A stretch of DNA of 50,763 bases from a virus. Numbering within the stretch: position 1 is the first letter of the stretch; the number at the start of each line of letters is the position of its first letter. The stretch is taken from positions 1 to 50,763 of the IMG/VR virus record IMGVR_UViG_3300009788_001127, one strand, 5' to 3'. A program made the translations under genes and the position numbers. The notes below the pieces were generated by a model, which did not search any database, was not told the DNA's origin, and saw only the letters and a program-made list of their open reading frames with translations. Shown here piece by piece: positions 601-50,753 of this stretch.

Positions 601-698
601 ACTTTAGCACCAACTAAAAGTGCAATACAAAACCCGAAAGCAGCCATAGCTATTAACAATATCGCTATTTCTAAAATTAAACTTATCTTATTATTCAT
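597..698 (-). CDS. 33-aa single-span membrane peptide
   Basis: This short ORF starts MNNKISLILEIAILLI and is almost entirely one hydrophobic helix with no charge until its last lysine. Its ATG overlaps the stop of the glycosyltransferase-methyltransferase gene (TAATG), and its stop overlaps the next glycosyltransferase start (ATGA), so it sits in a tightly coupled chain. In the right-hand copy the same slot holds an unrelated 62-aa soluble protein, so it is a variable cassette. Its function is unknown. Confidence 0.6.
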   Translation of the reverse strand: MNNKISLILEIAILLIAMAAFGFCIALLVGAKV

Positions 699-1855: not shown

Positions 1856-2019
1856 TACTGAGAACCTCCCACGTTTATGATTACCGTGTTTCCGGTTCCC
1901 GATAGTGCTTCCATAGTTCTTAACTCACGATTCGCGTTTCTAAGAACTCTTATAAGAGCCTTATTAACTTTAACCGCTTCGGAAATATAAGCTCTGACTG
2001 TGGTTCCCGTCTCTGCCAT
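1855..2019 (-). CDS. 54-aa hypothetical protein
   Basis: The ORF starts MAETGTTVRAYISEAV with an AGGAGG site ten bases before the ATG. The middle is rich in Asn, Arg and Leu (VLRNANRELRT), likely helical, and the end is glycine-rich (TVIINVGGS). Its stop overlaps the start of the glycosyltransferase-methyltransferase (TAATG). The copy at 48506-48670 differs at only a few residues, which supports it being a real gene. It sits between a capsid fibre gene and sugar enzymes; its function is not recognised. Confidence 0.65.
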   Translation of the reverse strand: MAETGTTVRAYISEAVKVNKALIRVLRNANRELRTMEALSGTGNTVIINVGGSQ

Positions 2020-2035
2020 TTTCTTTCCTCCTGTT

Positions 2036-2575
2036 TTATTTAACTAGTAATGCCTCGAATGCTACTGTTCCGAGTGCGCTCTCAACGACTATAGCCGCCG
2101 AATCTTTGGTAACTAGATTTAGAGTATTGCTGCCGTTCGTGCCGTGCGCTGTAAGGCTGACAAAGTTCGGACTTACGCCGAGACTATGTACCTTACTGAA
2201 ATTAGCGCTTGCTGCCTCTGTGGTTCCCGTAAGAGTCTCAGCCATTCCCCCTAGCGCTCCGTCTGCTGGAAGCGCGAGACTTGATCCAGATATCTGCGAT
2301 CCAACCATATCGGCAACCGTGATAATGGACCCTGATATTTGAGAGCCGACAATATCCTTAATGGTAGCGATAGATCCTGTCTGTACTGAACCGACAATAC
2401 TCTTAAGCGTTGCTATCGAGCCGGTGATCGTCGAGCCGTTAAGGTTCTTAAAGTCGCCCGTCGATCCGCTAATGGTTGATCCGGTAATAGCTGAACCGAC
2501 TTCTAATACTGATCCTGTTAGTCCGTCGGCAGCGACCGCGTTAAAATGGGTGGTTCCTTGTGTTCTATCCGTCAT
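2036..2575 (-). CDS. Serine/glycine-repeat fibre protein, probably head fibre
   Basis: A 179-residue protein with a short N-terminus, then imperfect repeats of about 16 residues of the form IATIKDIVGSQISGS, then a C-terminal domain (HSLGVSPNFVSL onward) of a type often found at the tips of phage fibres. The repeat pattern, a hydrophobic strand then GS-rich turns, is what a trimeric beta fibre would show. It lies directly downstream of the major capsid gene, which favours a head fibre or decoration role over a tail role. The right-hand copy has one extra repeat (195 aa). The many Ser and Thr residues make it a plausible substrate for the glycosyltransferases next to it; that is inference. Confidence 0.65.
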   Translation of the reverse strand: MTDRTQGTTHFNAVAADGLTGSVLEVGSAITGSTISGSTGDFKNLNGSTITGSIATLKSIVGSVQTGSIATIKDIVGSQISGSIITVADMVGSQISGSSLALPADGALGGMAETLTGTTEAASANFSKVHSLGVSPNFVSLTAHGTNGSNTLNLVTKDSAAIVVESALGTVAFEALLVK

Positions 2576-2588
2576 TTAAACCGCCCCC

Positions 2589-3650
2589 TTAGGTCGTGCT
2601 TCGATGCCAGATACGATTATCAATAGTTCCGATTCCGTAAATGAGTCGCGCCTTATACCTTACGAGATCGAAAAAGAAAACATCGTCAGAAATGAACTGC
2701 TTCGTCGCTTGCTGTGTGAATGTTTCCGGTGTTGGTCCGATAACATTTTGATAGATCAAGCCGTTAGCGTTTCTCTGCCTGCCTAGATAGAATCTAGTAG
2801 TTGAATCAGAGTCGAGCAATGGACAAATGACGAGACGAACAATATTCCTAAGAACGTTGGTGTCATTATCTGCGGAGCCTGAAACGCCTGCCGATTCTAG
2901 TATCCTTCGAGCTTTCCATTGTAGAGCTGCTGGTACTATTAACGTGTCTGGATTCCAGTTAAGGATTTTACTTGACGCTGTATCGGTCTGAGTCTGATAG
3001 GTCGTAATCATTGACTCTAAGTTGGTTGGTGTTAGCGTTAGCGTGGAGCTTTGCGCCGTTGTATTGGCAGCGGTAACTAGATGATCTCTGATCAACTCAT
3101 AACGCTCATACTTAACCGATTCTCCTAACTCTGTTGCAAGCCTTGTTATCTCTCCCGACTTATCATAACGAATTATCTCTTCCGTAACTTCGACGATTCC
3201 ACCATGCTTTTCGTTCCTAATAACAACATCTGCCTTAGCTGTCGTTCCAAGAGTGAAATACGGAGAATTCTGAATTATAGTTCCTGGTGTCGGTTTAAGC
3301 TTCTCGATTCCTGCGTAAGTCTCAGTCTCTTTTGTAGAGTTGATGTTAAACAAGAGCGGTTGTAACACATCTGTTACAGCTTGAAAAGCCGATAGCATGA
3401 TGACTCTAAAGTCCTCTCTCAACTGTGAAGGGAACTCCGAAGTCGTCGCGGCCTCAAACAACGTTCTCCTGTTCATAAGGGCTAACGAATCAATAGATTC
3501 CGCTATTGCTAAAGGACGACCGGCTTGGTATGTGTCGATATTGTCTGAACCTTCGTAAATCTTGAACGTATGGTTCTTTGTCTCGACTACCGTGCAATCG
3601 CCTTCCTTACTTTCTCTTACTTCTTTTGATTCTGGTCCTAAAACTTTCAT
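2589..3650 (-). CDS. Major capsid protein
   Basis: A 353-residue protein placed between the decoration protein and fibre genes and downstream of protease/scaffold, the standard position of the HK97-fold major head protein. The length fits. The central part (DTLIVPAALQWKARRIL, with SRN/RQRNANGLIYQN following) resembles Mu gpT-like head proteins. It starts ATG after a strong AGGAGG. The copy at 49288-50349 is nearly identical, with changes mainly near the N-terminus and residues 118-145, which may be surface exposed. Confidence 0.85.
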   Translation of the reverse strand: MKVLGPESKEVRESKEGDCTVVETKNHTFKIYEGSDNIDTYQAGRPLAIAESIDSLALMNRRTLFEAATTSEFPSQLREDFRVIMLSAFQAVTDVLQPLLFNINSTKETETYAGIEKLKPTPGTIIQNSPYFTLGTTAKADVVIRNEKHGGIVEVTEEIIRYDKSGEITRLATELGESVKYERYELIRDHLVTAANTTAQSSTLTLTPTNLESMITTYQTQTDTASSKILNWNPDTLIVPAALQWKARRILESAGVSGSADNDTNVLRNIVRLVICPLLDSDSTTRFYLGRQRNANGLIYQNVIGPTPETFTQQATKQFISDDVFFFDLVRYKARLIYGIGTIDNRIWHRSTT

Positions 3651-3669
3651 TTTTCTAACTCACCTCCTT

Positions 3670-4056
3670 TTAAAGTAATATATGGTTATTGCCTGTTATT
3701 ACAACGGCAACCTTTGATTTATCCGAACTTGATTGTTCCCATGCAACGCCGATTGCTGAACCGGTCGATACCTGAGCAGTTGCGACAGCGGTCGCACCAG
3801 ATCCGTAGAGCTGTTGACCTTGCTCTATCTTTTGTGCGGAGCCATCGCCCTTGGTGAGTTCAAAAACTCCCCTAGTCTCGACAACCCCCTTACTTCCTGC
3901 GACTGTATCGGTATCTAAAATACCGAAAAACATACCAGCATTAGCACCTCTAAGCGCCGAACCGGTAGTATCATACATAATATCGCCGCCCGTACCTGCC
4001 GAAGCCATAAAGACGACCATCCGTTTATAATCAGCCACAAATTTATTTTCTGCCAA
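3670..4056 (-). CDS. Head decoration protein
   Basis: A 128-residue small beta-rich protein (GVFELTKGDGSAQKIEQGQQLYGSG), gene-adjacent to the capsid protein. It resembles DUF2190-type capsid cement proteins that bind the outside of the shell. The start is TTG with AGGAGGTG upstream at good spacing; the homologue at the right end starts with GTG. The N-terminal 50 residues differ most between copies while the C-terminus is conserved, as expected if the N-terminus faces outward. The exact family assignment is moderately sure. Confidence 0.65.
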   Translation of the reverse strand: MAENKFVADYKRMVVFMASAGTGGDIMYDTTGSALRGANAGMFFGILDTDTVAGSKGVVETRGVFELTKGDGSAQKIEQGQQLYGSGATAVATAQVSTGSAIGVAWEQSSSDKSKVAVVITGNNHILL

Positions 4057-19429: not shown

Positions 19430-19732
19430 TCATTTTTGCACCCAACATTCGATTTTCTCGGTAAATGTATGAGCTTTCATAGCCTCTCGACCATCGTCCT
19501 CATCGTTTAAATGGCTTATGCTAACCATTCCTTTAGTCATTCCCTCACTAACCTTTAAGCCCGTAGCATCAAGAAAAGAATCTCCGCTTACAGCTTTAAA
19601 TAACTTTCCATACATTTGAGCTGTTGGCGCATAACAAACGGGAACTATTAACGCACCATCACTATCTGTAAATTCTTCTGGCAGTTCCATTTCCCCACAT
19701 ATCGGGCAAGTTACCTTTTCCTTATCTGCCAT
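19430..19732 (-). CDS. 100-aa zinc-finger-like protein
   Basis: MADKEKVTCPICGEMELPEE has a zinc knuckle CPICG at 9-13, with a later Cys (VPVCY). The rest is acidic. AAAGGA precedes the ATG, which lies within the end of the MBL gene. The sole knuckle suggests pairing with the second Cys or dimerisation. No family named. Confidence 0.55.
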   Translation of the reverse strand: MADKEKVTCPICGEMELPEEFTDSDGALIVPVCYAPTAQMYGKLFKAVSGDSFLDATGLKVSEGMTKGMVSISHLNDEDDGREAMKAHTFTEKIECWVQK

Positions 19733-20483
19733 TATTTCCTTTCTCATCCTCATACTTATCTAACCCTTGGTCTTTATCTATTCTCTCTTGCGTGACAATA
19801 ACGTGTTTACCAGTGGTGCGCTGGATAGTCTCTTTAATAACTTTCTCGTCTGAGTTTCCGCTTGAAAGATGAATCAAGTGGATTGATATAGTCTTACTCA
19901 AGTCATTCGCCTTAAAGAAATCGACCGCTGTTTCCAAAGAAAAATGATTCCGTCTTAATCGCTTTTTTAAGCTTCTATCAAGAGATCCATTACTGATATT
20001 TCTATCTAAGATTTCCTCGCAATAATTAACTTCTACCATGAAGTGAGTTATCCCCTTAAAACGATAATGACAATAAGCTGAGTCGGTAAGATAAAGTAAC
20101 TTCTCATTACCTCTGGCGATCAGAAATCCTAAAGGTTCCGGCGCGTCATGTTTCGTGTCGAACGGTAAGATGGTCCAGCCGTCTATATCGAACTGTCTAT
20201 GCGCCACAATAGCGTGTGTGCGGTGCGATACTATACCCAACGCTTCAAGCGTCCCTTCCGAGGTATAAACATCTACCCCAGACTTAGCAACGCCTAAGAT
20301 TGCCTTAGAATGATCTTGGTGCGCGTGGGTGCATAGGCAACCGGCGACGCTCGATAGATTAAAGTCGAGCGTCTTCCTGATCTCTTTTATCGAGATACCG
20401 CACTCAAGCAATAAGGAACTACCATCCTTCGTTATCAGATAACAATTACCTTTGCTAGACGACGCGATTGCCTTGATCTTCAC
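19722..20483 (-). CDS. MBL-fold metallohydrolase (recombination partner)
   Basis: 253 residues with the metal site HAHQDH at 53-58, then ILPFDTKHDAPEPLG and YLTDSAYCHY, typical of YycJ/VicX-like MBL-fold proteins. It starts with GTG right after the RecT stop. In several Firmicutes phages an MBL-fold gene sits next to RecT, where it may act as the nuclease that makes single-strand ends for RecT annealing. That role is inference here. Confidence 0.8.
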   Translation of the reverse strand: MKIKAIASSSKGNCYLITKDGSSLLLECGISIKEIRKTLDFNLSSVAGCLCTHAHQDHSKAILGVAKSGVDVYTSEGTLEALGIVSHRTHAIVAHRQFDIDGWTILPFDTKHDAPEPLGFLIARGNEKLLYLTDSAYCHYRFKGITHFMVEVNYCEEILDRNISNGSLDRSLKKRLRRNHFSLETAVDFFKANDLSKTISIHLIHLSSGNSDEKVIKETIQRTTGKHVIVTQERIDKDQGLDKYEDEKGNNGR

Positions 20484-35768: not shown

Positions 35769-36299
35769 TTAATCTCCTATTTGTTCTTGGTCCATGTGAG
35801 TCCACTCAACTTGCGTGTCTATCGTTCCTTGTCTGTCTGGATCGTAGTAATCGTTTCTTATCTGCTTCGCGAGATCCATATAACTCTTTGCGACCTTCGT
35901 CTTATCGACTTTTACATCTGCCGATATAAAGGAAAAGAAAGAAGCGGCTCCGGCAGCCCTCACTTCAAGCGCTTCGGCAGCTGATAGTTCAAGAACAGCG
36001 CCATTTCTAGTTAGTATGTCGGTTAGGAGCGTTCCGTTAAGCTGTGTGCAGTTATATTCGGCTGTGATGGTTGTACCATTCGTCGGTGCGACTGCAAAAG
36101 CAAGAACGCCCGATGTTCCGTTTAAGGTAAAGCCTGCCGTTCCTAAGACGCTACCGCCATCGGTAATCGTTCCGGTCGATGGTTCGATAGGGAACTTAGA
36201 GACTTGGAACTTTGTAGCGGTTCCATCGCCTATTTTAGTATCGAATCTAAACTTCGGTAAATCATCTATTCGCTGCCTTAAATCTTCCAAGTTTGCCAT
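35769..36299 (-). CDS. Head-tail adaptor (gp6-like, probable)
   Basis: 176 residues. The N-terminus has beta segments (FDTKIGDGTATKFQVSKF, TITAEYNCTQLNG), the C-terminus is helical (LSAAEALEVRAAGAASFF, KSYMDLAKQIRNDYYD). Such a helical pattern with conserved AEALEV is typical of phage connector gp6-like adaptors. First gene of the connector set. Confidence 0.6.
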   Translation of the reverse strand: MANLEDLRQRIDDLPKFRFDTKIGDGTATKFQVSKFPIEPSTGTITDGGSVLGTAGFTLNGTSGVLAFAVAPTNGTTITAEYNCTQLNGTLLTDILTRNGAVLELSAAEALEVRAAGAASFFSFISADVKVDKTKVAKSYMDLAKQIRNDYYDPDRQGTIDTQVEWTHMDQEQIGD

Positions 36300-36621
36300 T
36301 TATGAACTCCTTTCCGTCGTTACTCATTCTATTCGGTGCTGACTTATTAAACTCTATAGGATTATTTATTAAGCTTATATTACCTTTTAAGGTTTTAGGT
36401 AATAGAAATATCATCTTATTAGTATTCGTTAATAAAAAATGAGGTAGTGTTTCTTTCAACCGATTAACGTTTGATTGGTTAAGCCTGACGAACGCTAGTT
36501 CCATTTTTGGCGGAGTGAAATTCATCAGGACAAATAAAGCGCCTGGTAATAATTGACCCCACTTAGGACCGGCGTTCTGACCCCACTTAGGACCTTCTCC
36601 TTGACCCCATTTGAATGCCAT
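36262..36621 (-). CDS. 119-aa protein with WGQ repeats
   Basis: The N-terminus has three KWGQ units (MAFKWGQGEGPKWGQNAGPKWGQ broken into repeats of 8) before a hydrophobic segment (LPGALFVLMNF) and a Leu/Asn-rich end. The stop lies 38 bases inside the adaptor gene. Such W-G-Q repeats are often low-complexity linkers; function not recognised. Confidence 0.5.
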   Translation of the reverse strand: MAFKWGQGEGPKWGQNAGPKWGQLLPGALFVLMNFTPPKMELAFVRLNQSNVNRLKETLPHFLLTNTNKMIFLLPKTLKGNISLINNPIEFNKSAPNRMSNDGKEFINGKLGRFKAANR

Positions 36622-40453: not shown

Positions 40454-40789
40454 CTACGACTTACAAATTAACTTAAACGTTCTCTCTGCCGCCTGTGTTG
40501 CCGTTACTAGCTTTACATCGTTCCAAGGCGCGAGTCCTGGTAGATCCCCGAATCCTGCACTTCCTGTCGAAGCTGCGACTTTTAACTCTGTTGCGTCGCT
40601 TCCTTTTAATCTAAAAAAACTAGTTCCATCGGCTGATACATCGAAAGATATAGAGCCTGTCGTAAGAACCGGAGCTATTAAGCCAAACTTCGAGTAGTCC
40701 GCTATTCTTGCTACGTTAGAAGTAGTTACAACACTCGACGATAAAACCGTTAAATCAATTACTTCGTTTTCATTCCAACTTCCACTCAT
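40454..40789 (-). CDS. Fibre-associated beta-rich protein
   Basis: 111 residues starting MSGSWNENEVIDLTVL, chosen because AGGAGA lies before it and it overlaps the glycosyltransferase stop. Beta-rich with SFDVSADGTSFFRLKG and a C-terminal RTFKLICKS. Directly before the fibre gene, likely a fibre or head accessory. Confidence 0.55.
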   Translation of the reverse strand: MSGSWNENEVIDLTVLSSSVVTTSNVARIADYSKFGLIAPVLTTGSISFDVSADGTSFFRLKGSDATELKVAASTGSAGFGDLPGLAPWNDVKLVTATQAAERTFKLICKS

Positions 40790-41505
40790 TTTACAATCTC
40801 CTTTCTTTCTAAAGTCTTTTTCCACTCTGGATAATCAAGTTCTGTTTGTTTATTCCAGTAAAGCAATTTCCAAGCGTCGTAATCCTGATCGCTTTCTTTC
40901 GTCCGTCCTAAATGTTTGACTTTTACATTTTGAAGATAACCCGTTTGAAGTCCTGCGTTACTAGCCCTATTTGCGAACTCTCCATCCTCTTGACCGTAAT
41001 ATCCGAACTCTTTAAAGAAGCCTATATGATCGAACAGCTTTGTTGGATAAGCCGTAAAGCCGCCACCTACACAAGGGTTTAAGAACTGTTCAATCCCTAG
41101 TCCGTTCTTAACTGCCATCTTCGAGGGCCCGACCTGTTTACCTGTGTCGATATCAGCCGACAATATACCAAGACTCTCAAAACTCATAAACGCTCTAATA
41201 AACTTTTGATTCCAATCGTCAGTCTGGACAACCGTATCATCATCGACCTTAACCATTAACTCTATGTTGGCTTCTTTGATTAACTCGTAGCCCTGCTTTA
41301 AAGCTCTCGTTATTCCGACGTTTTCTTTATTTTCGATTAAGATAACGCCTTTTAATGACCTCAGGTATTCTAATACCCCAGGATAAGGAGCTTGGTTATA
41401 TATGATGTAATAAACGTACGGCGGCTTTGTCTTTTCAAGTACCGCATCGATGGTAGCTTTGACGTAGCTAAGTTGATTATATACGACAGTTACTATTCCC
41501 AGCAT
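40786..41505 (-). CDS. Glycosyltransferase family 2
   Basis: 239 residues with MLGIVTVVYNQLSYVKATIDA, VGITRALKQGYELI and the metal DDD in KVDDDTVVQ, plus GGGFTAYPTKLFDHIGFF and a GYYGQEDGEFANRASNAG end that resembles the ED acceptor loop of GT-A enzymes. It adds one sugar to a glycan in the cluster. Confidence 0.8.
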   Translation of the reverse strand: MLGIVTVVYNQLSYVKATIDAVLEKTKPPYVYYIIYNQAPYPGVLEYLRSLKGVILIENKENVGITRALKQGYELIKEANIELMVKVDDDTVVQTDDWNQKFIRAFMSFESLGILSADIDTGKQVGPSKMAVKNGLGIEQFLNPCVGGGFTAYPTKLFDHIGFFKEFGYYGQEDGEFANRASNAGLQTGYLQNVKVKHLGRTKESDQDYDAWKLLYWNKQTELDYPEWKKTLERKEIVK

Positions 41506-41990
41506 TTAACACCGTACCCGTAAACGTGGAAATCTTCTTCGATAGCTTCTTTCTTTTCAAATTTTTCCAGTAATACTAAAAAAGCTTGCGCGGTGAACCG
41601 CCAGTAATCCTCGGGGTACCCGTGCCTTCCACCGTCCTCCATAAGATCGCCACATCTTATACTGCAAGCCGTTATTATCGTGTGTCCGCCCGGTTTTAAC
41701 ACTCTATAGATTTCGCTAAACGTTTGAAAAGGATGGGAGTCGTGTTCGAGCATTTCCACGCAAGTTACGCAATCAAATGTTTCATCATCATAAGGTAAGT
41801 CGTGAGCGTTTGCGATAATATCGACGTTCTCACGTTTAGTCCCTCGCATATCAAGACCTATGTAATCGCAGCCTTCAAATATCGGCTTAACTGTTCCGCA
41901 TACATTTAAACTGCCTACATCGAGTATCTTTCCTTTAATATCAAATTTTTCTTTAACACTTCTAACATAGTTCATACAGTTATCATCCAT
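41493..41990 (-). CDS. SAM-dependent methyltransferase
   Basis: 165 residues: GKILDVGSLNVCGTV (SAM loop, somewhat altered), YIGLDMRGTKRENVD, LPYDDETFDCVTCVEMLEH, then EIYRVLKPGGHTII. This is the class I methyltransferase pattern (Methyltransf_11 type). GGAGG lies before the ATG. Likely methylates a sugar made by the neighbours. Confidence 0.8.
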   Translation of the reverse strand: MDDNCMNYVRSVKEKFDIKGKILDVGSLNVCGTVKPIFEGCDYIGLDMRGTKRENVDIIANAHDLPYDDETFDCVTCVEMLEHDSHPFQTFSEIYRVLKPGGHTIITACSIRCGDLMEDGGRHGYPEDYWRFTAQAFLVLLEKFEKKEAIEEDFHVYGYGVKCWE

Positions 41991-42008
41991 TAAAAACAAC
42001 CTCCCACA

Positions 42009-42761
42009 TCATTGCCAATCAGCCTTGATCTTTCTCTCCAGTTCATCGGCACCAGGATATTTAATCTTCTTAAGATGTTTACACATCATCGCTCGGATTA
42101 CTTTCTCTCCGTCCTCGTCTCTTGAGGTTTCCGATAGTTGCCCTTCATGGATAGTGTTAATCCCCAGCAATGAATCAATCCTTAAAAACTCCGCTCCGGC
42201 AATAGCCATTCTTGCGACTAGATCGTAATCTGAGTGCGGTCCAGGCTGATAAGGTCGAACCTTATCGAATAGCTCTTTCGTATATAAGAAACATATCCCT
42301 ATCGTGTATCCGATTGCCAGATGATGTAATTGGAGCTGACCGTCAAGATGAGACGGCCTCGTAAACTCCTTTATCGAGTTTCCTTCTCGCTCAAAGTTTA
42401 AAAAGTTACCATAAGCGAAATCGACTCCTGAATCATCTATCCCTTCGAGTAAGGTTCTAAGAAAATTAGAGAAATAGAGATTATCGTCCGTTATGAAAGT
42501 GAGGTATTGACCTCTAGCGAGATCCATTCCACGATTTAAAGCTCCTATTCCTACGTCGTTTCCATGCTCCACGAATTCTAGTCGTATTCTACTATCTATA
42601 AATGTCAAAACTTCATTAACTGTGTTATCCGTAGATCCGTCGTCAACGATAATAAGCTCAAAGTCTTTAAAGCTTTGCGTAAGTATCGAGTTTATAGTAT
42701 TCCCTATCATATCCGCGCGGTTATAAGTTGGCATGATGAGTGATATTGTCGGCTCTCTCAT
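42009..42761 (-). CDS. Glycosyltransferase family 2
   Basis: 250 residues with MREPTISLIMPTYNRADMI, FELIIVDDGSTDNT and FITDDNLYF as the metal-binding loop, then GYTIGICFLYTKELFDKV. Standard GT-A fold enzyme. Three bases overlap with the radical SAM gene, so the two are probably coupled. Confidence 0.85.
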   Translation of the reverse strand: MREPTISLIMPTYNRADMIGNTINSILTQSFKDFELIIVDDGSTDNTVNEVLTFIDSRIRLEFVEHGNDVGIGALNRGMDLARGQYLTFITDDNLYFSNFLRTLLEGIDDSGVDFAYGNFLNFEREGNSIKEFTRPSHLDGQLQLHHLAIGYTIGICFLYTKELFDKVRPYQPGPHSDYDLVARMAIAGAEFLRIDSLLGINTIHEGQLSETSRDEDGEKVIRAMMCKHLKKIKYPGADELERKIKADWQ

Positions 42762-43729
42762 AGGAAATCACCGTGTTTAATCTCGCCGTCAACGGCACCT
42801 AATACTTCATTATAAGGTTCGTAATAACACTTATCGCAATTACTACCGTCGAACGGTTTATACAATGCCTTTTTTAATGTCTCAATATTGTTTGCATATC
42901 CCATCCTCATATCTTTTGGGAAGTTTAATTCTTGGTCATTTGCGGTTTTTGCATACTGAACACCGCAACACGGATAAACGTTCCCGTCAGCGGCTATCAG
43001 TGGCTTTAGTTGCGATATATAACAGTTCTTACTTCCTCTCGTATATTCCTGTCTTGCTTGATAAATCACTAAGCTATCATCGACCAAAACACTCAGACCG
43101 AACTTTATATCATCCATCGTTGGAACATTATCAAGATCAATCAGGTCTGAAACAACCCGAACATGAGAGAAGTTCTTTTTATTAGCGTAATCGATAAACG
43201 CTGCCAAGTTCTCTGGCTTATATTTATCTGTTACCACGTAACTAAAAGCGAAATCTACGTTCCGGCATAGATCAACCGGATTATAAACATTACGGTTAAA
43301 AGTTATTTCATCTGAGCAAGATATCCTGCACCAAGTTAGAGCGTCCAGAGTACCCGTATCAAGACTTCTAAGTTTAATTCCGTTAGTAACTAACCCGACT
43401 TCGATATTGAGCGCTAGAAAGAGATCCAAGATGCTCTCAATGTCACCGTGCATCAACGGCTCTCCACCGCCTGTTATCGTTACTGCTTTAGTACCTAACT
43501 TATTTAGATTGTATGCAATATCTGCAAGCTGATTAAAGCTTAACTCTTGCTCCTTATCCACGTTATCGCATGAGCAGAAACCGCATTGAAGATTGCATTT
43601 ATTCGTTGGACATATTTGAGCATGGATAGGATCTATCTTTTTAGTTTCTTTAAACTTCTTTAAAGCATCGTGACCGATTAGTTTAGCCGGTAATGTTCCG
43701 GCTGCGGTATATGAATATTTATTGTTCAA
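42758..43729 (-). CDS. Radical SAM enzyme (SPASM-like)
   Basis: 323 residues. CNLQCGFC is the [4Fe-4S] CxxxCxxC motif, with the preceding CPTN. TITGGGEPLMHGD is the SAM GGE motif. The C-terminus has CCGVQYA and CDKCYYEP, a SPASM-like extra cluster. Such enzymes modify peptides or sugars; within this cluster it could act on a sugar or on a Ser/Thr/Cys peptide of a structural protein. Confidence 0.85.
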   Translation of the reverse strand: MNNKYSYTAAGTLPAKLIGHDALKKFKETKKIDPIHAQICPTNKCNLQCGFCSCDNVDKEQELSFNQLADIAYNLNKLGTKAVTITGGGEPLMHGDIESILDLFLALNIEVGLVTNGIKLRSLDTGTLDALTWCRISCSDEITFNRNVYNPVDLCRNVDFAFSYVVTDKYKPENLAAFIDYANKKNFSHVRVVSDLIDLDNVPTMDDIKFGLSVLVDDSLVIYQARQEYTRGSKNCYISQLKPLIAADGNVYPCCGVQYAKTANDQELNFPKDMRMGYANNIETLKKALYKPFDGSNCDKCYYEPYNEVLGAVDGEIKHGDFL

Positions 43730-44486
43730 GACGCTTCACCGCCATTTTAGCCTCAAACAGTTCTGTCGCTATCTTATAAAGCCTCATATCGTATTGATTG
43801 TGCTTTTCAATAAGTTTTAAGGTCTTACTGTCGATATCCTCTTTTCTCGGTCTACCTTCAGTTACGTTATGCTTTTCGATATTTGGTGTTATTCGCCACC
43901 TTAATTCACGCCTCATCATTTCGACTGACTCATCGAACCGTTCCATTAATCCGACAACTGCAAACTTTCGTAAATTACTTTTTGCTATTTTAAATATCTC
44001 ATCATTAACCTTACCGAACGGAACTTCTTTTTCTTGGCATTCATAGCGGTCTGCTATTCCTGCTAACACTCTCGTTTGTCCATTGTCGTTATCAGTCGCT
44101 TCAAGAATATACTCTTCTAACGAGCAATCACTTGACGTTATCTTCTCATATAAATAATGATCTGCATTCTGTTTAATGTAATAGTAGTTAGAGATTATTC
44201 TGTCGATTGGATCTCTTATTAAAGTTATGTATCGCGCTGTCTCTTCTAATTGTGTATGGATTCCGTAATTTATATGCCCTTTAATTAGCCTCAAATCCCG
44301 TCGCTCTTGATCGCTTAGATCTTCAAAATGTCGGCTTCGTCGATCCTTGCTGCCTGGGAAATAGCCGCTCGTTACAAAAAAAGGCGCTTTATCACTATAT
44401 TCTTTTTCTAAAATTCTTTGTAAGCTAGTTCCTCCAGTTTTCCCAATATGAAGAAATATTAGTATTCTTGGTTCTTCATTTTTCAT
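43719..44486 (-). CDS. Sulfotransferase (Sulfotransfer_2 type)
   Basis: 255 residues: IFLHIGKTGGTSLQRIL is the PAPS 5'-phosphosulfate loop, and YITLIRDPIDRIISNYYYIK the 3'-phosphate binding motif. The family adds sulfate to sugars or tyrosines. This is rare in phages and makes sulfated glycan on the virion or host surface likely. It overlaps the radical SAM start. Confidence 0.85.
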   Translation of the reverse strand: MKNEEPRILIFLHIGKTGGTSLQRILEKEYSDKAPFFVTSGYFPGSKDRRSRHFEDLSDQERRDLRLIKGHINYGIHTQLEETARYITLIRDPIDRIISNYYYIKQNADHYLYEKITSSDCSLEEYILEATDNDNGQTRVLAGIADRYECQEKEVPFGKVNDEIFKIAKSNLRKFAVVGLMERFDESVEMMRRELRWRITPNIEKHNVTEGRPRKEDIDSKTLKLIEKHNQYDMRLYKIATELFEAKMAVKRLEQ

Positions 44487-44980
44487 ATTCTCTTCACCGC
44501 CATAAAACCCTCCGAGTCTAACATCGGAAACGGAAGAATCGAATAATACCCGTTATCGTAAAAGTCTTTAGGAGTCCAAAGAGATTTATGGTCGATTGCC
44601 GGATTACCATAACCCCAATCTTCGGGAGTTTGTTTATTATCAAAGAATGTTATCGGTGTGTATAAGATAACAACTTTCCTCGCGATAGCCTCCGCATCTT
44701 TTATTAGCTGAAAGCCCTCTTCTTTTTCAAGGTGTTCTATTATATCGACACAAAATACAACGTCGAAAGAATCAGGTTCGATTACCTCTTTTATGTTTCT
44801 TATATCGTGCTGGATAAACTTTCCTTTAAACTTATCGCTATAGTCATATATATCTACGCCTGTTATCATATCTGGCTCGAAGTCAACTTCCGTTATTCCT
44901 ATTCCACAGCCGAGAGATAAGACTTTAGAATTCTCGACATCGCCGCCGATATATCTGAGCATATAACCGCATAAATTCAT
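44483..44980 (-). CDS. SAM-dependent methyltransferase
   Basis: 165 residues with KVLSLGCGIGITEVDF as the SAM loop, then MITGVDIYDYSDKF, DVVFCVDIIEHLE and TPITFFDNKQTPEDWG. A compact class I methyltransferase lacking extra domains. ATGA overlap with the B12-binding enzyme, so the two are coupled. Confidence 0.8.
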   Translation of the reverse strand: MNLCGYMLRYIGGDVENSKVLSLGCGIGITEVDFEPDMITGVDIYDYSDKFKGKFIQHDIRNIKEVIEPDSFDVVFCVDIIEHLEKEEGFQLIKDAEAIARKVVILYTPITFFDNKQTPEDWGYGNPAIDHKSLWTPKDFYDNGYYSILPFPMLDSEGFMAVKRI

Positions 44981-46206
44981 ACCTGCGACACCGCCCAAGC
45001 TAGGAAGTTATAATCTACGCCTTTTATCTTCGGATTATCCGGTTCAAAGTACCTGCGGTAATCCTCAGACTTCTTAACGAGGCTTAAATCGTTATCCTCG
45101 CAATAAGTATATAAATCGCTGCCCGGGTGAGGCGTATATGAAGCCCAGCTTAATATGGCTTTCGGATCAATCGCTTTTATCCTTTGAGCCATCTCAACCG
45201 TTTGGAGAACTTCTAACCTTGTTTCTGTCGGTATTCCGACCATTAGGTTCGCCCAAGTGCTGATTCCGAGCTGGCATAGTATCTCAGTGGCGCCGATATT
45301 ATCTTCGACCTTTGTCTGTTTCCTTAAGAAATCAAGGATTTTCTGACTACCTGATTCCATGCCTATAAGACAACCTCTAAGTCCTGCTTGATGTAGCGCC
45401 TTAAACATTTCCGGCTTCTTAACGATATGATCCGCTCTCGACTGACAATAGAATTCAGCGTCCGGTAAATACTTATTCTTAGCTTCTATGAATTCATCGA
45501 TATACTTCGGGAATGCGCTAAAGCAATCATCATGGATTAAAAACGATTTAAGACCTGAACGCGCCTTTAATTCTAGTAACTCACCGATAACGTTATCAAC
45601 TGATCTCATTCGAACTTTAGATCCGAATAGCTTTTTCTCTGCTGGTTGACAAAAGGTGCATCGATGCGGACAGCCACGCCCGATTATAATGGTATGAAAC
45701 GGCTCCTTTAAGTATCCGATTGGCGCTTCGTTCGCTTGTCCGAATATCTCTCTATCTGAATATGGTAACTCGTTTAAGTCCGGTCTTGAATTGTCCATCG
45801 TTCGACTTTCAAGCCACATAGTAAAAGCTACTTCGCCTTCACCTTGAATTATAAAATCTGCTCCTAGTTCTTCGCTATGCTCCGGTTCGACGCTGGGATG
45901 GATACCTCCGACAGCTATTCTTGCCTGTGGCTTAACTTTCCTTATCCGCTCAATACATTCCTTTGCGTAATCGAAATTAGCCGATAGAACGGAAACCCCG
46001 AACGCCTGAGAACCTGACCGGCTTACTTCTTCCTCGTATCTTTGCCAATCGATGCCGTTCTCATTGGTCATTCTTCTTAGATCGATTAGCCCGATATCGT
46101 GACCTTCTCTTTTTGCGTATGCGGAGATACTAGCGATACCGTGTCTTATCCATGAACCGTCTAAGCCGTCCCATGCTACCGCCGGATTTATTAGGGTTGC
46201 TTTCAT
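44977..46206 (-). CDS. B12-binding radical SAM enzyme (class B-like)
   Basis: 409 residues. The N-terminal B12-binding-like half (HGIASISAYAKREGHDIGLID, ARIAVGGIHPSVEPEHSEEL) is followed by CPHRCTFC, the radical SAM cluster site, and GLRGCLIGMESGSQKILDFLRK. This domain order marks class B radical SAM methylases, which put methyl on unactivated carbon or phosphorus, or do other reactions. In this cluster it probably modifies a sugar. Confidence 0.85.
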   Translation of the reverse strand: MKATLINPAVAWDGLDGSWIRHGIASISAYAKREGHDIGLIDLRRMTNENGIDWQRYEEEVSRSGSQAFGVSVLSANFDYAKECIERIRKVKPQARIAVGGIHPSVEPEHSEELGADFIIQGEGEVAFTMWLESRTMDNSRPDLNELPYSDREIFGQANEAPIGYLKEPFHTIIIGRGCPHRCTFCQPAEKKLFGSKVRMRSVDNVIGELLELKARSGLKSFLIHDDCFSAFPKYIDEFIEAKNKYLPDAEFYCQSRADHIVKKPEMFKALHQAGLRGCLIGMESGSQKILDFLRKQTKVEDNIGATEILCQLGISTWANLMVGIPTETRLEVLQTVEMAQRIKAIDPKAILSWASYTPHPGSDLYTYCEDNDLSLVKKSEDYRRYFEPDNPKIKGVDYNFLAWAVSQV

Positions 46207-46379
46207 AATTGACCGCCAAACGCAACCCTATCAAACAGCTTTTCTACTATGCCTCGTAGTCTGTGAATCTCTCCCCAAGTCGGAACAGTCTCGGGTAGAC
46301 GCCTGCCTCCCTCGTGCCAATATAGTAGTTGCGCTAATTCTTCTCTTTCCTCGTCTGTACGCTCCCTATTATTACTCAT
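46203..46379 (-). CDS. 58-aa hypothetical protein
   Basis: MSNNRERTDEEREELAQLLY is acidic/basic and helical, then WGEIHRLRGIVEKLFDRVAFGG. ATGA link to the glycosyltransferase gene. It may be a small partner of the sugar enzymes; no motif. Confidence 0.55.
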   Translation of the reverse strand: MSNNRERTDEEREELAQLLYWHEGGRRLPETVPTWGEIHRLRGIVEKLFDRVAFGGQL

Positions 46380-47164
46380 AGCTTCCACCCTTCTTCTCTC
46401 GGAAGCAGTGGAGTATCTTCAGCTATACCAAAGAAGCTATCAGCTCGTTTTTTCCATCGATCAAGTAATATCTCAAAGTTTCTTCTTATCAATAAGTCTG
46501 TGTGTTCGTCTGGATGGATGCCATAACTTGCACCTCCTAGATGAACGGCGCGAGATTCCATCGAGACTAGAACCTTTTTCTTGTCTGCTAGAGCCTGTAA
46601 GCAGATATCTACGTCTTCGTAGTTGCCGCCTTGATAATCTTCGCAAAATCCACCTACTTTTTTAAACCAATCTGCTCTAATCGCCATCAAAGCACCCGTA
46701 ACGGCTTTTACGTCCTTATACTTACCTTTAAACTCTGATTCTGTGGCTCCCATGTTTTCATGGTAAGGAAGTCGCTTCTTACCGAATATAATTCCTTCGT
46801 GTTGGATGGTCTGATCTTGCGACAATAGTTTAGCTCCACAGATAGCGACCTTCTCATCATTAAAGGCTTCGACCATCGCTTCAATGCTTCCTGGTAATAT
46901 CTGACAATCGTTATTAAGGAATATCAGTATATCCGCGTTCGTCTTACTCGCTCCTAGATTGCAAGCTGCCGCGAATGATAGTCTTTCATCGGATCTGATT
47001 ACTTGATGCGGACCGTCTATCAATGTCGATTCTTTTGAGCCGTTATCGACAACTACCACATCAATATCTGCCGGACCGAATAGATATAAGTTCGACAAGC
47101 AGAAGGTCTTTAGTAAATCGTCCATCTCGTAGTGCGGTATTATTACGCTGATCTTTTTATTCAT
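46376..47164 (-). CDS. Glycosyltransferase family 2 (complete copy)
   Basis: 262 residues starting MNKKISVIIPHYEMDD with GAGGTGAG upstream. Same enzyme as the truncated copy at the left edge, with FLNNDCQILPG as metal loop and GGNYEDVDICLQALADKKK near the active site. Its ATG overlaps the stop of the 62-aa gene. Ends EGWKL. Confidence 0.88.
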   Translation of the reverse strand: MNKKISVIIPHYEMDDLLKTFCLSNLYLFGPADIDVVVVDNGSKESTLIDGPHQVIRSDERLSFAAACNLGASKTNADILIFLNNDCQILPGSIEAMVEAFNDEKVAICGAKLLSQDQTIQHEGIIFGKKRLPYHENMGATESEFKGKYKDVKAVTGALMAIRADWFKKVGGFCEDYQGGNYEDVDICLQALADKKKVLVSMESRAVHLGGASYGIHPDEHTDLLIRRNFEILLDRWKKRADSFFGIAEDTPLLPREEGWKL

Positions 47165-47349
47165 TGCCAACTCACCTCAAGCCTTTTAATTAACTCTCTC
47201 GCATATGCTTCGAGGTGTTTATTTGTAAGTATCGGTACGTTTTTTCTACTAAGACATTCTTCTATTTCTTTAACTTTAGCCGCGACAATTCCAGTGGGAA
47301 TCTCATCACGCATAATTAAATATAAGAGACTAACTAGATTTTCATTCAT
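47161..47349 (-). CDS. 62-aa hypothetical protein (variable cassette)
   Basis: MNENLVSLLYLIMRDEIPTGI and KVKEIEECLSRKNVPILTNKH, then AYARELIKRLEVSW. Soluble and helical, with no relation to the 33-aa membrane peptide in the left copy, although both start right after the same TAATGAAT junction. The two overlapping joins keep the coupling. Confidence 0.65.
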   Translation of the reverse strand: MNENLVSLLYLIMRDEIPTGIVAAKVKEIEECLSRKNVPILTNKHLEAYARELIKRLEVSWQ

Positions 47350-48506
47350 TACTTCACTCCCATTATCGATAGTTCGCCTTTATTGGCGCTCTCGTATATG
47401 TAGAGATTCTTAAATCCTGCTTTTTCAAACATCGCTCTCGCAAGGTCTTTGTTTAATCCTGATTTAGCACCGTAAAGAATGTTTAACGCTGCGTTCGGAT
47501 TATCCTTACATTGAGCAAGTCCGTAATCGATATCCGGTACCTTAATAAATATCTTTCCGCTATCGTTTAGAACTCGTCGCCATTCTCCGAGTACCGCGGA
47601 CATCTCTTGAATAGTAAAGGTATGTAAGAGATGGGCAGAATAGAGAATATCGAACGTATCATCTGTAAATGGTAACTGGTTGCCTTTAGCAACTACATCA
47701 GGGTTAAACTCTTTAAGTTCATCGACCCTCGTCACCTGACAGCCTGGAAACTCATCTTTCCGACCGCCGCATCCTATCCACGCGAGTGACTTTAAACCCT
47801 CCATTCGGATTGGTTTTCTCCCTTGCGCTTGCGGTTCCTCTCCTTGCAGTCCAAAAAACTTCTTTGAATGTTTATCGTAGTGCGACGCTTGTATATTTGT
47901 ATCGATCCACAGCGAATAAGGCTTTCCATTCGGTGCTATCGTTTCTTGCATCTTTGTGTAGAAATATAGATCTTCAGTTAATGCCCTAGCTTCCATCTTG
48001 CCCTCTTTGGTCTGTTTTAGACCATAATCGATGGCGAACCACGGCTTTCCGTGTTGCTCTTCCATTCTTCTTAGAACGTCAGCGCGTATCAACACTAGAC
48101 CGCAACCTGCCGCCCATGTTTGGAAGAAATCTCCAACCGTCCAATCGTAATAAGAACCCTTACCCTTCTCTTTGAATATTAAAGGCTCTCCAGGTTCACT
48201 TTTAGCGTAGTAAACGCCCGATATAGCCCCTATGTCGTCCGGTGAGTTCTCCATCCGATTAACAAGCATCCTAAGCGTGTTAGGCGGCATTATCACATCA
48301 TCATCAAGGAAGAATAAGTATTTAGGCTTACTTTCGTCACTTACTACCTGCTGTGCTATTTCGTTTCGTGCTTCGTCGATTCTCTTATCTAAAACGATAC
48401 TAAACTGATTCGTATAATTGATAGGCATAGCTATCGATGTAAGGCTCATCGTAAAGTGCATTGATACCGTTCCGAACGTTGGTATTCCGATTACGCATTG
48501 AGCCAT
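47349..48506 (-). CDS. Fused glycosyltransferase and SAM methyltransferase (right copy)
   Basis: 385 residues, closely matching 698-1855. Glycosyltransferase DDD at 68-70, methyltransferase loop near 245. It differs at scattered sites, such as PDDIG here versus PEDIG and LKQTKEG versus LTKTSEG, and the local hot spot around residue 210. Both copies remain fully open, so neither is decaying. Confidence 0.78.
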   Translation of the reverse strand: MAQCVIGIPTFGTVSMHFTMSLTSIAMPINYTNQFSIVLDKRIDEARNEIAQQVVSDESKPKYLFFLDDDVIMPPNTLRMLVNRMENSPDDIGAISGVYYAKSEPGEPLIFKEKGKGSYYDWTVGDFFQTWAAGCGLVLIRADVLRRMEEQHGKPWFAIDYGLKQTKEGKMEARALTEDLYFYTKMQETIAPNGKPYSLWIDTNIQASHYDKHSKKFFGLQGEEPQAQGRKPIRMEGLKSLAWIGCGGRKDEFPGCQVTRVDELKEFNPDVVAKGNQLPFTDDTFDILYSAHLLHTFTIQEMSAVLGEWRRVLNDSGKIFIKVPDIDYGLAQCKDNPNAALNILYGAKSGLNKDLARAMFEKAGFKNLYIYESANKGELSIMGVK

Positions 48507-48670
48507 TACTCAGAACCTCCCACGTTTATGATTACCGTGTTTCCGGTTCCCGATAGTGCTTCAAAAGTTCTTAACTCACGATTCGCGTTTCTAAGAACTC
48601 TTATTAGAGCCTTATTAACTTTAACCGCTTCGGAAATATAAGCTCTGACTGTGGTTCCCGTCTCTGCCAT
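48506..48670 (-). CDS. 54-aa hypothetical protein (right copy)
   Basis: Matches 1855-2019, ending VGGSE instead of VGGSQ, and with a single Met-to-Phe change in the middle (RTFEAL). The reading frame and overlap are kept, supporting a real gene. It has the same AGGAGG binding site. Confidence 0.65.
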   Translation of the reverse strand: MAETGTTVRAYISEAVKVNKALIRVLRNANRELRTFEALSGTGNTVIINVGGSE

Positions 48671-48686
48671 TTTCTTTCCTCCTGTT

Positions 48687-49274
48687 TTATTTAATTACTA
48701 ACGCCTCGAACGCTACCGTACCGAGTGCGCTTTCTACGACTATTGCCGCTGAATCTTTGGTAACTAGATTTAGAGTATTACTTCCGTTCGTGCCATGCGC
48801 TGTTAGACCGACAAAGGTCGGACTTACACCGAGGCTATGGACCTTACTGAAATTAGCGCTTGCTGCGGCTGTGGTTCCTGTAAGAGTCTCAGCCATTCCC
48901 CCTAGCGCTCCGTCTTCAGGAAGCGCGAGACTTGATCCGCTTATTTGCGAACCGACCATATCGGCAACCGTGATAATGGAGCCTGATATCTGTGAGCCTA
49001 CTAAATCGGCTACCGTTAATATCGAACCCGACATCTGAGAGCCGACAATATCTTTTATCGTCGCAATCGATCCTGTTTGCACTGAACCGACGATACTCTT
49101 AACTGTTGCTATCGAGCCGGTTATCGTAGAACCGTTAAGGTTTTTAAAATCAGCCTGAGAGCCCGAAAACTGCGAACCAGTTAAGACTGATCCGACCTCG
49201 ATAACGGTACCAACAATTCCATCGGCTGCATAAGCGTTCGCGTGGGTGGTTCCTTGAGTTCTGTCATTAGACAT
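48687..49274 (-). CDS. Serine/glycine-repeat fibre protein, longer form
   Basis: 195 residues, with one more 16-residue unit (SGSILTVADLVGSQI) than the copy at 2036. The N-terminal 45 residues are notably different (HANAYAADGIVGTVIEV and TGSQFSGSQADF), while the C-terminal domain is nearly unchanged. This fits quick change in the shaft and base with a kept tip. Confidence 0.65.
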   Translation of the reverse strand: MSNDRTQGTTHANAYAADGIVGTVIEVGSVLTGSQFSGSQADFKNLNGSTITGSIATVKSIVGSVQTGSIATIKDIVGSQMSGSILTVADLVGSQISGSIITVADMVGSQISGSSLALPEDGALGGMAETLTGTTAAASANFSKVHSLGVSPTFVGLTAHGTNGSNTLNLVTKDSAAIVVESALGTVAFEALVIK

Positions 49275-49287
49275 TTAAACCGCCCCC

Positions 49288-50349
49288 TTAGGTCGTGCTT
49301 CGATGCCAGATACGATTATCAATCGTGCCGATTCCGTAAATGAGTCTCGCCTTATACCTTACGAGATCGAAAAAGAAAACATCATCGGATATAAATTGCT
49401 TCGTCGCTTGCTGTGTGAATGTTTCCGGCGTTGGTCCGATAACGTTTTGATAGATCAAGCCGTTAGCGTTTCTCTGCCTGCCTAGATAGAACCTAGTAGT
49501 TGAATCAGAGTCGAGCAGCGGACAAATGACGAGACGAACAATATTCCTAAGAACGTTGGTGTCGTTATCTGCCGATCCTGAAACGCCTGCTGATTCCAGT
49601 ATCCTTCGAGCTTTCCACTGAAGAGCAGCCGGAACGATTAGCGTGTCTGGATTCCAGTTAAGGATTTTACCTGACGCAGTATCGCTTTGAGTCTGATAGG
49701 TCGTAATCATTGACTCTAGGTTAGTCGGTGTCAGCGTAAGTGTTGAGCTTTGCGCCGTTGTGTTGGCAGCGGTGACTAGATGATCTCTAATCAACTCATA
49801 TCGCTCATACTTAACCGATTCGCCTAGCTCTGTTGCAAGCCGTGTTATCTCACCTGACTTATCATAACGAATTATCTCTTCCGTAACTTCTACGATTCCA
49901 CCATGTTTCTCGTTAGTGATAGTAACATCAGCTTTTGCAGTAGTACCAAGCACGAAATACGGCGTATTCTGAATAACCGTTCCAGGTGTCGGAGCGAGCT
50001 TCTCAATACCTGCGTATGTCTCCGTCTCTTTTGTAGAGTTGATATTAAACAAGAGCGGTTGTAACACATCAGTTACAGCTTGAAAAGCCGATAGCATGAT
50101 GACTCTAAAGTCCTCTCTCAACTGAGAAGGGAATTCAGAAGTCGTCGCGGCCTCAAATAACGTTCTTCTGTTCATAAGGGCTAACGAATCAATAGATTCC
50201 GATATTGCTAAAGGCCGACCGGCTTGGTAAGAATCTTTGTTATCCGAACCCTCGTAGATCTTGAAGGTATGGTTTTTAGTCTCCACTACCGTGCAATCGT
50301 CCTCTTTACTTTCTCTTACTTCATTTGAATTTGGTGCTAAAACTTTCAT
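49288..50349 (-). CDS. Major capsid protein (right copy)
   Basis: 353 residues, nearly identical to 2589-3650. Changes cluster at residues 5-8 (APNS here, GPES there), 37-41 and 118-146 (KLAPTPGTVIQNTPYFVLG). The C-terminal half is almost unchanged. It keeps the same place between decoration and fibre genes. Confidence 0.85.
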   Translation of the reverse strand: MKVLAPNSNEVRESKEDDCTVVETKNHTFKIYEGSDNKDSYQAGRPLAISESIDSLALMNRRTLFEAATTSEFPSQLREDFRVIMLSAFQAVTDVLQPLLFNINSTKETETYAGIEKLAPTPGTVIQNTPYFVLGTTAKADVTITNEKHGGIVEVTEEIIRYDKSGEITRLATELGESVKYERYELIRDHLVTAANTTAQSSTLTLTPTNLESMITTYQTQSDTASGKILNWNPDTLIVPAALQWKARRILESAGVSGSADNDTNVLRNIVRLVICPLLDSDSTTRFYLGRQRNANGLIYQNVIGPTPETFTQQATKQFISDDVFFFDLVRYKARLIYGIGTIDNRIWHRSTT

Positions 50350-50366
50350 CTTTCTAACTCACCTCC

Positions 50367-50753
50367 TTAGAGTAATATATGATTATTGCCTGTAATAACT
50401 ACGGCAACTTGGTCATTATCTGAACTTGATTGCTCCCATGCTACACCGATAACTGAACCGGTCGATACTTGCGCTGTTGCGACGGATGTCGCTCCTGATC
50501 CATAGAGTTCTTGTCCCTGCTCTATCTTTTGCTGGCTTCCGTCACCTTTAGTAATGTTAAAAACGCCGCGCGTTTCGACAACGCCTTTAACTGACGCGCT
50601 TGACGTAGTATCTAAGATGCCGTAAAACATACCAGCATTCAGACCTGCAACGGCCGAACCTGTCGTTCTATACATCAGGTCGCCACCCGTTCCAGACGAT
50701 GCCATAAAGACCGCCATCCGCGTATAATCCGCGACGTACTTTTTCTCTGTCAC
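50367..50753 (-). CDS. Head decoration protein (right copy)
   Basis: 128 residues starting at GTG (MTEKKYVADYTRM), close to 3670-4056. The N-terminal third differs at many positions (DLMYRTTGSAVAGLNAG, TTSSASVKG), the rest is kept. The binding site would lie beyond the window edge, so the start is not fully checked. Confidence 0.65.
   Translation of the reverse strand: MTEKKYVADYTRMAVFMASSGTGGDLMYRTTGSAVAGLNAGMFYGILDTTSSASVKGVVETRGVFNITKGDGSQQKIEQGQELYGSGATSVATAQVSTGSVIGVAWEQSSSDNDQVAVVITGNNHILL

Follow-up and report, generated by a model that had tools for sequence, protein, structure and literature searches.

An enzyme gene cassette between the capsid and tail fibre genes

We analyzed a single metagenomic virus record of 50,763 bases (IMG/VR record IMGVR_UViG_3300009788_001127; this whole stretch is hereafter called the window), focusing on a chain of enzyme genes at 40786-48506 that lies among genes for virion proteins. 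That the window is one such record is a caveat. Nine enzyme genes, all on the minus strand, were found where the initial annotation had placed them, between the capsid and fibre genes and the tail fibre gene, and matches to Pfam and PHROGs as well as sequence motifs bore out this chain (Table 1). The motifs seen in the window proteins were CNLQCGFC, CPHRCTFC, TGGGEP, GKTGGTS...RDPIDRIISNYY and FFLDDD. In the order of transcription, the capsid gene is followed by the genes for a repeat protein, a 54-aa open reading frame (ORF), a glycosyltransferase-methyltransferase fusion (GTMT), p62, the glycosyltransferase GT_C, p61 and a B12-binding radical S-adenosylmethionine (SAM) enzyme (B12-rSAM), and then by those for the methyltransferase MT_B, a sulfotransferase, a twitch-like radical SAM enzyme (rSAM), GT_B, MT_A, GT_A, p123 and the tail fibre.

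Adjacent frames in the chain overlap by 1-22 nt or are spaced by 9 nt, and there is one larger gap (48507-48686). The 54-aa ORF fills this gap; its ribosome-binding site is a good one (AGGAGG), and its stop codon and the start codon of the fusion gene overlap (TAATG). Because this ORF bridges the only larger gap, the enzyme chain is unbroken from the fibre and capsid genes. The structural flanks were likewise confirmed by PHROGs, with capsid and decoration proteins upstream and the tail fibre downstream. Scans for promoters and terminators gave results at chance level only. No match was obtained when the phage sequences of GenBank were searched at the DNA level, or in single-sequence scans of viral contigs with the B12-rSAM and with the capsid protein.

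Table 1. Features of the enzyme cassette and its structural neighbours, with positions in the window
Feature	Position	Strand	Basis
Tail fibre, 1067 aa	37230..40433	-	phrog_18345 tail fibre 1.8e-19
p123, small protein coupled to GT_A, ahead of tail fibre	40454..40825	-	ORF; no family match
GT_A, family 2 glycosyltransferase, last enzyme of chain	40786..41505	-	Glycos_transf_2 4.8e-9; phrog_2456 glycosyltransferase 5.6e-9
MT_A, class I SAM methyltransferase	41493..41999	-	Methyltransf_11 6.2e-14
GT_B, family 2 glycosyltransferase	42009..42761	-	Glycos_transf_2 7.8e-32
rSAM, twitch-like radical SAM enzyme of an unnamed, mostly phage-borne family	42758..43729	-	Radical_SAM 8.2e-14
PAPS-type sulfotransferase (Sulfotransfer_2)	43719..44486	-	PF03567 4.9e-13, above cut-off
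MT_B, class I SAM methyltransferase, weaker match	44483..44998	-	Methyltransf_23 6e-6 (range 6e-6 to 4e-5)
B12-rSAM, B12-binding radical SAM enzyme (class B)	44977..46206	-	B12-binding PF02310 1.6e-16; Radical_SAM PF04055 3.2e-22
p61, small ORF in chain	46203..46388	-	ORF only; no family match
GT_C, family 2 glycosyltransferase	46376..47170	-	Glycos_transf_2 5.2e-17; second allele at 1-600
p62, small ORF	47161..47349	-	ORF; no PHROG match
GTMT, glycosyltransferase-methyltransferase fusion, first enzyme of chain	47349..48506	-	Glycos_transf_2 3.2e-6 (residues 45-96); Methyltransf_11 1.4e-8 (C-terminal half); phrog_1574 (residues 5-211); allele at 698-1855, 97% identical
54-aa ORF between fibre gene and enzymes	48506..48670	-	AGGAGG site; no PHROG match
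Ser/Thr/Gly-rich repeat protein, fibre-like	48687..49274	-	S+T 25%; 15-aa repeats; no PHROG match
Major capsid protein	49288..50349	-	phrog_371 major head protein 4.1e-17; phrog_133 5.3e-15
Head decoration protein	50367..50753	-	phrog_122 1.5e-5

A mostly phage-borne radical SAM family

The rSAM had initially been described as a SPASM-like radical SAM enzyme. Its membership of the radical SAM superfamily stood, since the protein has the cluster motif and the GGE-type motif, matches the Pfam family and gives a structure model that matches radical SAM structures. In 61 aligned family sequences, C45-x3-C49-x2-C52 is invariant and TGGGEP is conserved. The SPASM part did not stand: only twitch cysteines are present (C236-x12-G249-x4-C254 and C298-x2-C301), the full SPASM set (C-x9-15-G-x4-C, C-x2-C-x5-C-x3-C, C) was not found, and the later conserved cysteines are absent across the family. 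The cysteines sufficient for one auxiliary Fe-S cluster are invariant in the family alignment. This cysteine pattern fits a twitch-like C-terminus, for which one auxiliary cluster is predicted.

Members that entered the large alignment show 35-49% identity to the window protein. Common to them are a SYTAASxFPxKL motif at the N-terminus, a His at the C-terminus and, besides the invariant rSAM cysteines, five C-terminal cysteines that are conserved. PHROGs and NCBIfam gave generic rSAM matches only, and no model specific to this family. A first search, with an alignment of the window rSAM and three GenBank phage relatives, yielded 80 viral loci; a second, with a 17-member family profile, yielded 69 viral loci, plus 13 in approximately 85,000 prokaryote genomes. 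Eleven of the 13 prokaryote-genome matches span most of the rSAM. Almost all lie on contigs assembled from metagenomes, and some clearly belong to phages, such as L094 with its head genes. The family is found at 68 IMG/VR loci, versus 11 near-full-length matches in the prokaryote genomes.

We then considered the fold, using an AlphaFold2 (AF2) model built from 61 sequences (pLDDT 92.7, pTM 0.90). Foldseek placed the TDP-sugar deaminase DesII at the top, followed by BlsE and SuiB, and VIA-align gave Z values of 21.4 for SkfB, 20.3 for DesII, 19.8 for SuiB and 18.9 for BlsE. We rejected the DesII ranking as a substrate assignment, because SkfB, DesII and SuiB are nearly tied. The window rSAM has the same fold as the sugar-acting enzymes of the DesII/BlsE/BtrN/SpeY type and a C-terminal cysteine pattern that would suit one auxiliary cluster; however, its identity to them is <20%, and the SYTAASxFPxKL motif and the C-terminal His set the window family apart.

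It could also be argued that the rSAM, the sulfotransferase and the methyltransferases are peptide maturases, acting on capsid or fibre residues or on a small peptide resembling the ribosomally synthesized and post-translationally modified peptides (RiPPs), and not on sugar. Such a role would agree with a fold that is as near SkfB and SuiB as DesII, and with the presence of small ORFs of 54, 61 and 62 aa within the chain. However, in 43 of the 68 loci a large gene lies no more than 120 nt away on either side of the rSAM gene, so that there is no space for an adjacent precursor there. In addition, the neighbours are glycosyltransferases, and the closest solved sulfotransferases act on heparan sulfate. 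We consider peptide maturation improbable, and prefer a sugar role for the rSAM because of its neighbour genes and its cellular homologues in surface-polysaccharide loci, described below.

Related cassettes in other phages

Genes were called in 79 loci and labelled with profiles seeded by the window and by loci with Pfam- or PHROG-labelled members; connector and some tail labels are based on position and sequence clustering only. The locus counts are not dereplicated and include pairs that look near-identical (L022/L023, L114/L115, L122/L123 and L134/L135). Within 6 kb of the rSAM and on the same strand, a glycosyltransferase gene was present in 59 of the 68 viral loci, a methyltransferase gene in 27, a sulfotransferase gene in 16 and a B12-rSAM gene in five. 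As an internal control, glycan-type labels were carried by 37-53% of the genes up to 2 kb from the rSAM, versus 2-6% at 6-10 kb. Further rSAM-bearing records contain Sulfotransfer_2 or Sulfotransfer_3. GT_B is 36% identical to the glycosyltransferase adjoining the rSAM in L106, and MT_B is 41% identical to the methyltransferase adjoining it in L011.

The rSAM gene lies between the capsid gene (commonest type) and the connector gene in 12 of the 13 loci that show both, within an insert of 4.3-10.3 kb and mostly together with a sulfotransferase gene. The common order is a sialyltransferase-like gene (phrog_4603), a glycosyltransferase gene (phrog_1962), rSAM, glycosyltransferase or methyltransferase genes, a sulfotransferase gene and the connector gene. 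Alternative sites are before the connectors (L009), among the tail genes and before the tape measure gene (L011), after the terminase and portal genes (L106, the only locus with a terminase that matches the window terminase), and upstream of the head genes (L010 and L149). L149 carries genes for a B12-rSAM, a PIG-L N-acetylglucosamine (GlcNAc) deacetylase, a methyltransferase, a glycosyltransferase, the rSAM, a Sulfotransfer_2 protein and a further glycosyltransferase, with a terminase gene on the contig; as far as the gene families indicate, this parts list almost equals the window set. Other cassettes have extra enzymes, namely LicD in L120 and epimerases in the larger clusters of L020, L021 and L109.

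The initial annotation would have taken it as a refutation if the cluster had turned up only once, with no structural neighbours in other phages. Because the rSAM family recurs at 68 IMG/VR loci, the window cassette is no one-off, and related cassettes occur in the structural modules of many phages.

Two separate observations were made in these loci. Near the rSAM cassette of L011, a glycosyltransferase gene (L011:7292-9268) is split by a LAGLIDADG-domain intein. In L007 (LR756501, a 735-kb phage), the rSAM lies between two transketolase-like halves, which were identified by eye, and all of this is within a long glycosyltransferase cluster.

Two alleles at the window ends

The two ends of the window (1-4032 and 46559-50729) represent the same capsid-to-glycosyltransferase region, with 85-92% DNA identity and changes that are mostly silent. 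The simplest reading is that the genome is probably circular, of approximately 46.5 kb, and that its assembly closed on a second strain. A true genomic duplication of 4 kb was rejected, because both copies end at contig ends and the differences are mostly silent.

The two diverged alleles made a selection test feasible for the genes present twice, which among the enzymes are GT_C and the fusion only, the remaining enzymes being without a second allele. Between the alleles, dN/dS was 0.056 for the capsid, 0.048 for the fusion and 0.03 for that part of GT_C which both alleles cover. GT_C and the fusion are therefore under strong purifying selection, maintained as strictly as the capsid.

These values bear on the possibility that the cassette is a mixed cargo island, in which host-derived metabolic genes have gathered at a tolerated site and form no joint pathway. 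The composition does differ between phages, and metagenomic contigs may be chimeric. However, two of the enzymes are under the strong purifying selection just described, and the combinations recur across unrelated phages. Moreover, rSAM identity follows structural-gene identity (r 0.52-0.87), although a few close pairs account for part of this correlation. We regard a cargo island as very improbable.

For the repeat protein encoded next to the capsid gene, we infer a candidate role as glycan acceptor. Its allele at 2036-2575 is one 15-aa repeat (VGSQxSGSIxTVADx) shorter than the copy at 48687-49274; that is, the repeat number of this probable virion protein varies between the two alleles. Elsewhere in the window, an MBL-fold protein (19722-20483) weakly resembles Apyc1, an anti-Pycsar protein (2.6e-4, below the cut-off), and a 119-aa ORF (36262-36621) opens with short GPKWGQ-like tandem repeats.

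Predicted sulfation and the supply of donors

The window sulfotransferase belongs to Sulfotransfer_2, with a 5'-phosphosulfate-binding (5'-PSB) loop (GKTGGTS), a 3'-phosphate-binding (3'-PB) motif (RDPIDRIISNYY) and a score of 50.2 bits against the Pfam cut-off of 22. The closest solved relatives by sequence are heparan sulfate 6-O- and 2-O-sulfotransferases, with a 6-O-sulfotransferase nearest (7.9e-7), but the window enzyme is phage-encoded, soluble and 255 aa long. Its structure model (pLDDT 58) was not used as evidence, because it gave weak matches only, with heparan sulfate 6-O-sulfotransferase on top. The B12-rSAM has the N-terminal B12-binding domain and the rSAM core of class B enzymes, and its solved relatives by sequence are 9ccb, the aminoglycoside enzyme AprD4 and TokK. 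B12-rSAM matches in L008 and in phage SF3 were dropped because of their unrelated surroundings.

An adenosine-5'-phosphosulfate (APS) kinase gene lies within the L013 cluster (L013:13353-13913, 4.4e-46), and APS-kinase-like genes occur beside the sulfotransferase gene in L114/L115 and also in L124. It is possible that these phage-borne genes near the rSAM and sulfotransferase clusters supply 3'-phosphoadenosine-5'-phosphosulfate (PAPS). Since APS kinase or APS-kinase-like genes accompany related clusters, we favour true PAPS-dependent sulfation.

Virion or host surface

It had been suggested at the outset that a glycan is placed on the virion fibre or on the host surface, where it might shield from defence or alter adsorption. 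The enzyme families, the neighbour genes and the cellular homologues support a glycan pathway well, and of the two locations we favour the virion, because in unrelated phages the cassettes are part of the late structural module and contain no membrane export genes. None of the window cassette enzymes reaches a KD19 of 1.6, that is, none has a clear membrane segment. Among 598 neighbour genes (within 5 kb, viral loci), only one, a tape measure gene, encodes at least four predicted transmembrane segments. No flippase, polymerase, exporter or membrane glycosyltransferase, as expected of GtrABC conversion or of Wzx/Wzy/ABC export, was seen in the cassettes. This absence of membrane proteins fits cytosolic acceptors.

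Alternatively, the enzymes may, late in infection, modify a polysaccharide of the host surface or its lipid-linked precursor and thereby serve superinfection exclusion or progeny release, in which case their seat among the structural genes would serve late expression only. Some cellular rSAM homologues are indeed in surface-polysaccharide loci of the O-antigen or capsule type, which also encode Wzz, WecG and Wzx in L096, Wzt in L099 and an ABC-2 exporter in L103, and the epimerase genes of the larger phage clusters would also suit such a role. Furthermore, glycosyltransferase genes of Pelagibacter phages lie in a hypervariable region, and the authors of that study prefer modification of the host O-chain/lipopolysaccharide (LPS) as their role (PMC7029224). 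However, GtrA/GtrB-type conversion requires membrane proteins, none of which are visible in the cassettes, and the placement among head and tail genes recurs among phages with unrelated capsids. We consider action on the host surface rather unlikely. As a separate observation, the chromosomal family member in the polysaccharide export locus of Geotalea toluenoxydans (L103:10001-10948) is seemingly broken into shorter ORFs.

Besides the cellular loci and the Pelagibacter phage proposal, several other results weigh against a virion glycan. By the markers used, structural neighbours within 6 kb were present in 31 of the 68 loci and not in the rest, although many loci are short contigs or have structural genes that escape the labels. 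No APS kinase was found in the window and no sugar-nucleotide synthesis genes were recognised there, so that the host must supply the donors. In addition, the modelled fold of the rSAM ties sugar-acting with peptide-modifying enzymes (SkfB and SuiB) and is alone not decisive.

Comparison with known systems

In the Cluster O phages (Corndog), an O-methyltransferase gene and glycosyltransferase genes lie between the portal and protease genes, and capsid modification was proposed by the authors (PMC4351075). According to PMC12363180, citing Freeman et al. 2023, virion proteins of Corndog, Che8 and Myrna are glycosylated. Cluster O and the window share glycosyltransferases and a methyltransferase; the Cluster O genes (Firecracker, L156) are inside the head structural genes, and the window cassette has the arrangement typical of Corndog, with glycosyltransferase and methyltransferase genes within a virion structural operon. 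GT_C is the window protein closest to Firecracker gp35 (25% over 183 aa, 1.4e-7), whereas gp36 has no significant window match and gp34 reaches only 0.0035. The Firecracker cassette that we viewed has four genes, versus nine in the window, and is without rSAM, B12-rSAM and sulfotransferase genes. Glycosylation has been demonstrated for the mycobacteriophage system and is predicted for the window.

Partial likenesses were also seen in other phages. In the uncultured ctQWt234 (MW202801, Manatee Spring), the order is capsid, rSAM, glycosyltransferase, PhyH, methyltransferase, NodB-like and glycosyltransferase genes and then a tail stabilisation gene, but its rSAM, at approximately 25% identity, does not belong to the close family, and a sulfotransferase and a B12-rSAM are absent from the automatic annotation. 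The Pelagibacter and cyanobacterial myophages HTVC008M and SynMITS9220M01 have a related rSAM gene followed by a methyltransferase gene in a sugar-type gene cluster; in the stretches viewed, however, these clusters are not between capsid and tail genes, and they contain NDP-sugar and heptose genes.

The initial annotation recognised no known phage pathway with such a composition. This holds within the open-licence literature searched, where we found no report of an rSAM together with a sulfotransferase in virion contexts, but Corndog provides a smaller precedent. Virion-glycosylation cassettes are already known as a kind, and new in the window cassette would be its predicted chemistry and the marker rSAM enzyme. 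We see in the window cassette a probable and elaborate relative of the mycobacteriophage virion-glycosylation gene sets.

Proposed pathway and its significance

We propose, as a reasonably probable explanation, that the cassette encodes a cytosolic pathway, expressed late, by which virion proteins receive a methylated, sulfated and radical-edited glycan, as a chemically richer variant of the Corndog type. During late expression, the soluble family 2 glycosyltransferases would build a short glycan in the cytosol, and the acceptor may be a Ser/Thr-rich virion protein, such as the capsid, the decoration protein, the repeat fibre or the tail fibre. The methyltransferases and the fusion would cap hydroxyls, and the sulfotransferase would transfer sulfate from host PAPS. 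The twitch-type rSAM, whose closest sugar-acting folds are DesII and BlsE, and the B12-dependent rSAM, AprD4-like by sequence, may modify the ring of the sugar or introduce a C-methyl group. The end product would be a charged, non-host glycan coat around the particle.

More tentatively, we suggest that many uncultured tailed phages wear a sulfated, methylated glycan edited by this mostly phage-borne rSAM family, some of them with the B12 partner and PAPS synthesis. Such a virion glycan chemistry has perhaps not been described so far. Because the rSAM family marks the cassette, the idea is testable in any cultivated phage that carries this family.

If this proposal is true, then phage particles can bear glycans that are chemically richer than those in the mycobacteriophage reports, and oxygen-sensitive radical enzymes, kept in a structural operon, make a virion glycan. 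Adsorption, the stability of particles and their recognition would then also have to be viewed with a glycan layer in mind, and the cassettes would offer unexplored sulfotransferases and radical sugar-editing enzymes.

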